Shown here piece after piece: positions 17,619-22,269 of a stretch of 64,000 nt of DNA (positions are counted from its first letter, which is position 1; each line of letters opens with the position of its first letter). The DNA is taken from contig NZ_CP012831.1 of assembly GCF_001307275.1 (NCBI RefSeq), forward strand, positions 496,001 through 560,000, written 5' to 3'. The notes under the pieces are model-generated. The model was not told where the DNA came from and made no database searches. It saw only the letters and a program-made list of their open reading frames with translations. Source of the DNA: Pseudomonas fluorescens. GTDB taxonomy: Bacteria; Pseudomonadota; Gammaproteobacteria; Pseudomonadales; Pseudomonadaceae. A program made the position numbers and the translations under genes.

Positions 17619-17645
17619 GTACACAACCTGATGAGGAGACAGGCC

Positions 17646-17825
17646 ATGTCCTTGCAACACAGCAGCGACGACAAGATTCAAGTAATCCGCACGCAACCGG
17701 ACCAGTCTCTGGGCTGCTCGTTCATCGATGCCCAAGGGCGCGAGGTACCGATCACCGAAGACATGATCCAGAAAGCCTGCAGCGAGCTGGAAAAACGACT
17801 GGTCAAGCCTGCCGAACAAAAGTGA
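17646..17825 (+). CDS. Small conserved Pseudomonas protein, possibly PA1571 family
   Basis: A 59-residue soluble protein with the core GCSFIDAQGREVPITEDMIQKACSELEKRL. The pattern of one strand, GREVPIT and an amphipathic helix recalls the small PA1571 family of pseudomonads; this is from memory and tentative. GAGGAG lies 8 bases before the ATG, and a strong terminator begins 22 bp after the stop, so it is probably a real single-gene transcript or one with the leader ORF before it. Function unknown. Confidence 0.75.
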   Translation: MSLQHSSDDKIQVIRTQPDQSLGCSFIDAQGREVPITEDMIQKACSELEKRLVKPAEQK

Positions 17826-17846
17826 TACAGCCCGTCTTCAATTGGA

Positions 17847-17870
17847 CCCGACGTTGATGTCGGGTTTTTT
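17847..17870 (+). terminator. Intrinsic terminator
   Basis: ACCCGACG-TTGA-TGTCGGGT followed by T6, directly after the 59-residue gene. Confidence 0.85.
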
Positions 17871-17887
17871 ATGCCTGCCAGAAAGAT

Positions 17888-17972
17888 TGTGGAAGCAAGG
17901 CTTGCCCGCGATGCAGGCACCTCGGTCCCCTGACCGCGTCATCGTTCATCGCGAGCAAGCTTTGCTCCCACA
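17888..17972. repeat. REPIN (GGAGCAAGGCTTGCCCGCGA variant)
   Basis: Left arm TGTGGAAGCAAGGCTTGCCC and right arm GCGAGCAAGCTTTGCTCCCA. The right arm encodes the last eight residues and stop codon of pdxB. The interior (GCAGGCACCTCGGT...CGCGTCATCGTTCATCGCG) is nearly identical to that of the element at 21123. Confidence 0.95.
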
Positions 17973-19100
17973 ACCCAGTGCCGTCACGATCTGTTGCAAA
18001 GCCGCCGACTGCCCTTCGATACGAACCTTCAAGCTGTCGATCTCCCGCCGAGGCGGATAATGCTTGCGCAAGGCATCGAAGGTGCGGCGTTGCTCGTCGA
18101 CGGTGCCCACCAGGCTGCGGCGAAAATCCGCGTCGTCGCGACGGGGGTCGTACACGCTCCGGCACAACGCCGCCAAGGCCCAGGCCGGGTCGGTTTCGGC
18201 ATCCAGGGTGATGCCACCCAGCCACGGCCGAGGCAACAGGTCGCTGAGGCTGACTTCAACCGGTCGTTCCAGGAACGCGCACAAGGCCTGGTAGATCTGG
18301 GCCGTGCCACGCTGGCGACCATCGAGGCTGTAACCGGCAATGTGTGGAGTGGCGATCACGCACAAATCGGCCAGGTCCACATCCACGGTGGGCTCCTGCT
18401 CCCAGACATCCAGCACCGCCTGCAGGTCTTCGCGCTCCAGCAACACCTCGCGCAGCGCGGCGTTATCGATCACCGGCCCTCGAGCCGCATTGATCAGCCA
18501 GGTCCCGGGCTTGAGCTGGTTCAGGCGCGTTTCGTCGAACAGGTGCCAGGTCGGTTGCTCGCCGTCGCGGGTCAACGGGGTGTGCAGGCTGATCACATCG
18601 CACTGCTCGATGATCTGCTCCAGGCTCACATAGTCGCCGCCCTCGGCGGCCTGACGCGGTGGATCGCAGACTTTCACGGCCCAGCCCAGCCCCTTGAGCA
18701 CCTCGATCAACCGTCCGCCCACCTGGCCTGCACCGACCACGCCGAAGGTCCGCTGTTCCAGCGCCGCACCTTCGATGTCTGCCAGGGTCATCAGGCTGCC
18801 CAGCACGTAGTCCACCACGCCACGGGCATTGCAGCCGGGTGCGCTGGCCCAGCGGATCCCCGCCTCGGCAAGATAATCCAGGTCCAGGTGATCGGTGCCG
18901 ATGGTGCAAGTGCCGACGAAGCGTACCTTGCTGCCTTCCAGCAGGGCCCGATTGACCTGGCTGACCGAACGCACCAGCAATACATCGGCGTGCTCGACCA
19001 TCGTCCGGTCGATCCCCCGGCCCGGTACCCGGCGGATTTCGCCGAATCCTTGGAAGAACGCATCAAGCAGGGGGATGTTTTCGTCGGCGACGATCAGCAT
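17946..19100 (-). CDS. pdxB: Erythronate-4-phosphate dehydrogenase
   Basis: A 384-residue D-2-hydroxyacid dehydrogenase that oxidises 4-phosphoerythronate in pyridoxal phosphate synthesis. Start [20 protein letters not shown] is typical of PdxB. The NAD-binding motif is [12 protein letters not shown] near residue 121. The catalytic Arg region is [11 protein letters not shown], and the catalytic His is in [17 protein letters not shown] near residue 254. A C-terminal dimerisation domain follows. AAAGGAG precedes the ATG. The last residues CGSKACSR and the TGA come from a REPIN arm, which is unusual. Confidence 0.95.
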
Positions 19101-21122: not shown

Positions 21123-21207
21123 CGTGGGAGCAAGGCTTGCCCGCGATGCAGGCACCTCGGTCTCCTAACCGCGTCATCGTTCATCGCGAGCAAGCTTTGC
21201 TCCCACG
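21123..21207. repeat. REPIN (GGAGCAAGGCTTGCCCGCGA variant)
   Basis: Left arm CGTGGGAGCAAGGCTTGCCC and right arm GCGAGCAAGCTTTGCTCCCA. The right arm encodes the C-terminus and stop codon of rlmM. Confidence 0.95.
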
Positions 21208-22269
21208 GGGCTTCTTCGTGTCCAACCGCCGCAGATGGCAGGTCACTTCCTCACGGTCGTGATACAGCTGCTTGCAACCGATCTCGACCTTGATGCCCCG
21301 GGCCTTGAAACCCTCGGCGATGCGTTCGAGCAGGCGCTTCACCTCGGCATAACGCTGTTTCATCGGCAGCTTGAGGTTGACCACGGCCTCGCGGCAATGG
21401 CCCTCGCCAATCCACTCTTCCAGCATCGCCGCGTTGCGCGCAGGCTTTTCGACGATGTCGCAGACCATCCAGTCCACCGGCTGCTTGGGCTTGAACGTGA
21501 AGCCGTCCGCCATCAGGTGCTGCACCAGGCCAGTGTCCATCAGGCTTTCGGCCATCGGGCCGTTGTCGATGGCCGTCACCAGCATCCCACGGTTGACCAA
21601 TTGCCAGGTCCAGCCGCCTGGCGCGGCACCGAGGTCCACGCCGGTCATGTCACTGTGCAGGCGCTCGTCCCACTGGTCCCGAGGGATGAAATGGTGCCAG
21701 GCCTCTTCGAGTTTGAGCGTGGAGCGACTCGGCGCTTCCCGGGGGAACTTCAGGCGCGGGATACCCATTGGCCACATCGCCGAATTATCCGCGTCCGCCA
21801 GGCCCAGGAACACTTCGCGGCCACTCTTGAACGTCAGCAGCAGGCGCGGCTTGTGCGGGTCGTCCACCAGCTTGCCGGCCCCGCTCAGCGCTTTGCGCAA
21901 CGGGCCTTCGAATTTCTTGCAGAAGTTCGACAGCTCCTTGCCGTCATTGGTGTCGACCACCTCCAGCCACAGGCTGCCGCAGGTAGGGAACGCCGACATG
22001 TGAGCCAGGATCACGCTGATACGGTCGGTTTCCGGCAATTCAATGAACGTGCCCCGCGCCCACTGGCGTGGAAAAATCAGCTCGGCAAAACGCTGCCCGC
22101 GCATCAGCCGCTCGGCGCCGTCCTCTTCGGTACAGACAAATTCGGCGCAGGCACTGGCCGGTTTGGCCTTGGCGTAGCCGGCCACGTTGAGCCGGGCCGC
22201 GTGTTCGGCGATCTCGGAACAGACCTCGCCTTCGAAGCCTGGCCGGCAGTGCATAAAAAGCGTGTTCAT
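21181..22269 (-). CDS. rlmM: 23S rRNA C2498 2'-O-ribose methyltransferase RlmM
   Basis: A 362-residue SAM-dependent methyltransferase that modifies C2498 of 23S rRNA. It begins MNTLFMHCRPGFEGEVCSEI, with an N-terminal THUMP-like region. The Rossmann methyltransferase domain has the SAM motif DLGAAPGGWTWQL near residue 219 and a VDWMVCDIVEKP segment near 268. The last residues RGSKACSR and the TGA come from a REPIN arm, so the protein is probably a few residues longer than orthologues; I estimate about 355 in P. aeruginosa from memory. Confidence 0.92.
   Translation of the reverse strand: MNTLFMHCRPGFEGEVCSEIAEHAARLNVAGYAKAKPASACAEFVCTEEDGAERLMRGQRFAELIFPRQWARGTFIELPETDRISVILAHMSAFPTCGSLWLEVVDTNDGKELSNFCKKFEGPLRKALSGAGKLVDDPHKPRLLLTFKSGREVFLGLADADNSAMWPMGIPRLKFPREAPSRSTLKLEEAWHHFIPRDQWDERLHSDMTGVDLGAAPGGWTWQLVNRGMLVTAIDNGPMAESLMDTGLVQHLMADGFTFKPKQPVDWMVCDIVEKPARNAAMLEEWIGEGHCREAVVNLKLPMKQRYAEVKRLLERIAEGFKARGIKVEIGCKQLYHDREEVTCHLRRLDTKKPRGSKACSR

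Follow-up and report, generated by a model that had tools for sequence, protein, structure and literature searches.

The final eight codons and the stop of pdxB in Pseudomonas fluorescens lie in a REPIN that was probably copied from rlmM

The region considered here, which we will call the window, is a stretch of 64,000 nt from the Pseudomonas fluorescens contig NZ_CP012831.1 (positions 496,001 to 560,000), and coordinates refer to it unless a genome position is indicated. On its minus strand, at 17946-19100, lies pdxB, encoding a vitamin B6 enzyme, a 4-phosphoerythronate dehydrogenase of 384 aa; the product matches the curated PdxB model NF001309 at 625.8 bits (cut-off 434), and codon usage gives the gene a coding score of 128.7. 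The 3' end of pdxB runs into a REPIN of 85 nt (17888-17972, minus strand), that is, two GTGGGAGC-type REP arms in inverted orientation with a short loop between them. As the original prediction had it, the last eight residues, CGSKACSR, and the TGA lie within the right arm: pdxB translates the whole 27-nt arm (17946-17972, minus strand) and reaches its stop codon at the arm's inner edge. The second arm (17888-17914, plus strand) falls outside the reading. Beyond it, sequence reading places a terminator-like hairpin with a T run at 17845-17870 (plus strand), 3' of a small convergent ORF (17631-17825, plus strand), and this 3' neighbour with its hairpin is retained in most close relatives, which have a AAAAAACCCGAC stretch in common.

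The element has two inverted arms, a short loop, a total length in the range of about 80-90 nt and many dispersed copies in the genome, as one would expect of a REPIN. Allowing up to three mismatches, a 26-nt arm pattern found six matches in the window, against 0.00 expected from shuffled sequence. A repeat search restricted to the small region around the pdxB end returned none, a result that probably reflects the several bases at which the two arms are not alike. Genome-wide, the exact three-base form of the arm has 129 TGA-bearing copies and the GAGC form 299, and the sampled stretches together with the window contain 185 full REPINs. A Y1_Tnp gene at genome position 4402107 has REP arms of the related two-base form on both sides, the arrangement of a RAYT-type gene, and for this reason the REPIN-RAYT machinery appears to be present; such REPs are absent from the loci of two more Y1_Tnp matches in the genome. 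The REP-flanked RAYT-like ORF (L310, near 4402107) itself seems to take its end from a flanking REP, which is read in the repeat's opposite sense (...SIASKLAPTGLMLDT).

A second gene in the window ends in the same way. The gene rlmM (21181-22269, minus strand) encodes 362 aa that match the curated RlmM model NF008734 at 520.8 bits (cut-off 176), and it ends in KKPRGSKACSR-TGA, whereas native relatives read KKPKSR-stop at 357 aa. Its REPIN (21124-21206, minus strand) lies 3.2 kb from pdxB on the same strand. The claim that the tail of rlmM is that of pdxB, and read in its frame, is thus borne out. When the pdxB REPIN was compared with its own genome, itself excluded, the rlmM copy was the nearest at 96% over 83 nt, and the next best reached 87%.

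Comparison with relatives allows one to ask how pdxB ends where the repeat is missing. Of 445 confirmed named loci we took the best 80, and to these we added 30 from a 199-genome sample of the genus, again the best matches, which gives 110 pdxB loci; some genomes are present in both sets. The CGSKACSR tail was found at three of them: P. kilonensis DSM 13647 (L001), the window's own genome (L081) and L082. Because their rlmM coordinates are identical, L082 (G039) is apparently the same genome as L001 (G199), leaving two distinct tailed genomes. All three tailed loci have a GTGGGAGC-type REP arm that ends at the pdxB stop; no such arm (up to three substitutions) overlaps the stop in any of the 107 untailed loci, whose proteins have 377 to 382 aa. 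The comparison of strains that the original prediction called for therefore shows native ends at 107 of 110 loci, and the observation that would have spoken against it, the tail in an orthologue with no repeat nearby, was made at none of the 110. Among the matches listed, only those of the window's genome and G039 reach residue 384. In the 13 nearest named relatives (L002-L014) the last residue is always 380, the protein ending in ALGATxx in 11 and in ALGA plus another residue in two. Here, then, is a true gene with its stop in a REP and with orthologues that end differently where the REP is absent.

The two REPIN-bearing pdxB genomes have the junction, the loop and an identical tail peptide in common, and their 3' flanks are similar. 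Four native codons, the stop and 16 nt separate the last glycine codon in common from the conserved terminator in P. frederiksbergensis SI8 (L007); at the corresponding place the window has the REPIN and then 12 nt. The four native codons and stop were sought behind the pdxB REPIN in the window and left no trace there. Since they were not found, the native end was replaced, with four residues lost and eight gained, which agrees with the view that the insertion replaced or captured the original 3' end. Throughout the P. corrugata group (L002-L014 and L083-L090) no GTGGGAGC-type REP occurs within 250 nt behind the native pdxB stop, and the 3' flanks examined there hold another REP family or none.

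The rlmM end is a more variable affair. The 26 rlmM loci and the window reduce to 22 distinct genomes once five that are present twice are dropped, and 12 of these have the native end, KKPKSR or KKSKSR (357 aa). The other ten have a REPIN-made end, compared with two distinct genomes among the 110 loci for pdxB; at both genes the presence or absence of the REPIN differs between relatives. All ten junctions follow the same conserved KP, and five of the ten tails are exactly RGSKACSR (the window, G125, Q11, K18 and P. citri). The tails of P. corrugata, ICMP22404 and G010 have additional residues and GGSKACSR or GGSKAFSR. In P. kilonensis (L118) a 14-nt duplication of the REP tip has moved the tail out of the GSKACSR frame, and P. 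uvaldensis has a different 10-residue reading with TAA as its stop. Because length, sequence and frame all vary, a selected tail peptide in rlmM is unlikely. The REPs found behind native rlmM stops in relatives are of other sub-types or families. On a 20-taxon tree of both genes the tail state requires at least six changes, a fit equalled by 34% of 1000 shuffles, which suggests that gain, loss and recombination are mixed.

How often does a REP end a gene in this genome? The fetched stretches include all 129 copies of the three-base form; the count in them is 130, probably because one copy near the edge of an overlapping stretch was counted a second time. Only two of the 130 have a gene ending at their TGA, namely pdxB and rlmM, so the gene count proposed in the original prediction comes to exactly two in this census of the exact three-base form. 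The first 117 stretches hold 339 REP arms, and in them the reading frames of four genes stop within the arm or loop of a REPIN. Besides pdxB and rlmM these are the genes of an aldo/keto reductase (L212) and an amino-acid racemase (L141), which both use the VGARLARDE frame. A further 18 stretches added the candidates L255 (third frame) and L258 (VGAKLARE frame) on coding score. Across these six genes and candidates the CGSKACSR frame is used twice, the VGA[RK]LAR frame three times (L141, L212, L258) and the third frame once (L255). The frame shared by pdxB and rlmM is real, and it carries little weight: all three frames occur, so that a same-frame bias is rejected and the sharing is no evidence of design, and the rlmM relatives themselves use more than one.

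Three of the seven cases flagged in this search (L166, L175 and L253) were dropped, as their ORFs continue more than 1000 nt past the REP; the calls at L166 and L253 resemble over-extended gene starts. At L175:876-3200 an NRPS-like adenylation ORF stays open across an in-frame REPIN (PVGARLARDE...), apparently an internal insertion that keeps the frame. A scan for open frames by length was uninformative, with 28 other REP copies ending frames of at least 60 codons that have negative coding scores.

For the aldo/keto reductase, with one truncated locus set aside, 14 of 17 genomes (the window's own included in the comparison) keep a native end, VPRTS in ten of these, and the REP-fused genes of the window's genome, P. 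kilonensis and G125 have three differing ends: VGARLARDER, VGAGLARDER and VGSKA with TAG. REP-made tails occur in two of six close homologues of the racemase (G125 and P. citri) and are absent from the other four. Another REP family (GTGGCGAGGGAGC) often lies just behind the same genes in relatives without a REPIN tail (pdxB in L002, L003, L005 and L011; rlmM in L115, L120, L126 and L127; the aldo/keto reductase in L274-L276). It is as if the 3' ends of pdxB, rlmM and the aldo/keto reductase were hot spots with turnover of repeat families.

The original prediction held that the same event had happened independently at rlmM, and this part must be qualified in view of the comparison of copies: by pairwise similarity, the pdxB REPIN is probably a local copy of the more widespread rlmM REPIN. 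A single base separates the pdxB REPIN of P. kilonensis from the rlmM REPIN of Pseudomonas sp. Q11. A tree of the REPINs has near-zero branches and low support and cannot firmly place the elements, and for this reason the assignment of a donor relies on pairwise similarity; rlmM is the simplest reading, being both the more widespread and the closest in sequence. The pdxB tree groups the window with P. thivervalensis (support 0.957) and P. kilonensis with P. zanjanensis (support 0.915), and the rlmM tree branches differently again. As the REPIN-bearing genomes are not sisters, a single insertion in pdxB needs recombination or lineage sorting, and two separate insertions, both at one and the same base, are conceivable.

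REPINs in this genome may more generally have related copies close by. Merging copies separated by less than 1 kb left 134 REPIN clusters in the sampled own-genome stretches (L137-L271) and the window. For nine of these, the cluster most similar in loop sequence is no more than 5 kb away, compared with a permutation mean of 0.66, and none of 3000 within-type permutations reached nine; of the nine, two are the pdxB-rlmM pair, several others are weakly similar, and some may be segmental duplications. We regard this excess as a lead toward local spreading.

One should also consider what the insertion does to the mRNA and to the protein. The end of the pdxB mRNA (17880-17985) has a predicted fold of -59.7 kcal/mol (z -6.7, none of 200 shuffles as good), in which the REPIN forms one long hairpin; the stop codon falls within the 5' arm, at the inner end. 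The rlmM end is similar, with a predicted hairpin of -61.4 kcal/mol (z -7.4, again 0 of 200), and at the matching place two relatives without the pdxB REPIN gave z scores of -0.7 and -2.1. In Escherichia coli, REPs less than 16 nt from a stop codon can lower translation, according to the accessible text of PMC12306157, which cites earlier work. A hairpin around the pdxB stop may slow termination, change mRNA stability or mildly affect expression. The predicted PdxB model reaches a mean pLDDT of 70, which is middling. Its final helix spans 366-375 and is followed by a two-residue bridge (378-379), and pLDDT falls below 50 at residues 381-384. The PdxB structure 2o4c aligns as far as residue 377, which puts the tail beyond the conserved part. 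The RlmM model is poor (pLDDT 55) and was unusable.

Taken together, these observations make it very probable that a GTGGGAGC REPIN, likely copied from rlmM, replaced the end of pdxB and left a tail that is a tolerated passenger. A mobile element of this family would have joined the end of pdxB in a common ancestor of the window lineage and P. kilonensis, or the fused end would have been exchanged between them. It displaced four native codons with their stop, and probably part of the 3' UTR as well. The frame happened to meet a TGA where the first REP arm ends on its inner side, which left pdxB intact with a short new tail. The nearby rlmM REPIN is the most likely source copy; a RAYT transposase presumably mobilised it, and the direction of copying, from rlmM to pdxB, is suggested by the similarity of the copies and the wider spread of the rlmM one. 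That the pdxB tail is tolerated, and presumably neutral, is argued largely from rlmM: the tail comes after the last predicted helix, and its counterpart in rlmM varies in length, sequence and frame.

The replacement could have taken two steps, with the REPIN inserted behind an intact stop and a small deletion later fusing the gene to the REP arm. We think this a real contender, if somewhat short of an even chance. In P. citri the aldo/keto reductase keeps its native end; a REP arm lies 19 nt past the stop, and the 3' flank is similar. In the window's genome, P. kilonensis and G125 the gene is fused to the REP, and this arrangement suggests the two-step route for that gene. REP arms near stops are also common: in the sampled own-genome stretches 182 arms lie behind a gene of the same strand, and 93 of them begin within 50 nt of its stop. 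For pdxB and rlmM themselves, however, the intermediate is not seen, as the P. corrugata group has no GTGGGAGC-type REP within reach of the native pdxB stop and the REPs behind native rlmM stops belong to other sub-types or families. By form, the distances behind same-strand stops (L137-L253) are mostly 11-50 nt for the three-base arms and 21-30 and 61-90 nt for the two-base arms.

Two unrelated REPINs might instead have reached pdxB and rlmM separately, sharing a frame by chance or need. The target sites are unrelated, with no evident similarity in their flanking sequence, as this would require, but the closeness of the two elements, which extends to the loop, and the use of all three frames by REPIN-ended genes make it improbable. 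It is very improbable that the REP-encoded tail or the in-gene hairpin was selected, for instance to reduce PdxB or RlmM output by slowing ribosomes: the great stability of both predicted hairpins and the E. coli effect on translation (PMC12306157) would fit, but the rlmM tail peptide is not conserved, the pdxB tail is confined to two distinct genomes, and so few TGA-bearing arms (2 of 130) end a gene. REPs are repetitive and invite mis-assembly, yet an artefact of sequencing, assembly or gene calling is hardly credible when the same junction stands in the separate record of P. kilonensis DSM 13647 and codon usage supports pdxB as a gene.

Several published systems are related, and the following comparisons concern the accessible text of each paper. 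GTAG-tagged REPs provide stop codons to flanking ORFs (PMC3733652), and there too a REP element ends the gene; that stop, however, is a TAG at the outer REP terminus, a geometry that neither pdxB nor rlmM has, as pdxB reads the whole arm to an inner TGA and its native end is replaced. The REPINs and RAYTs of P. fluorescens SBW25 (PMC3116915) share the inverted doublet, similar size, many copies and a REP-flanked Y1_Tnp gene; that work treats structure and excision, whereas the present case concerns a protein end. Enterobacterial MITE-like RU elements within genes (PMC2759123) are likewise small mobile repeats that add coding sequence, but they form other, longer families. The stop-proximal REPs of E. 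coli (PMC12306157) also set a strong hairpin at the translation stop, but sit behind it, whereas the pdxB arm starts inside the ORF. Among the results listed by searches of an open-access library, which included papers on REPs and MITEs, none dealt with REPIN-made C-termini in Pseudomonas; subscription journals lay outside their scope. Stop-supplying REPs are already published; what is freshest here is that a likely donor can be named and that several genes of one clade show such ends.

The pdxB locus offers a clean comparison in which a non-autonomous mobile repeat rewrites the end of a conserved enzyme without breaking its frame, and naming the likely donor copy is useful for understanding how REPINs spread. 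Annotators should keep in mind that a short tail on a Pseudomonas protein, for example GSKACSR or VGARLARDER, can be derived from a repeat and carry no functional signal by itself. In several other genes of these bacteria, repeat-made ends look tolerated rather than useful. It is possible, and we suggest it tentatively, that REPINs copy preferentially nearby and that their arrivals at 3' ends repeatedly overwrite gene ends, with rlmM as donor and pdxB as recipient. If true, this would give a traceable donor-target pair and a recurrent origin of new C-termini in the Pseudomonas corrugata group.
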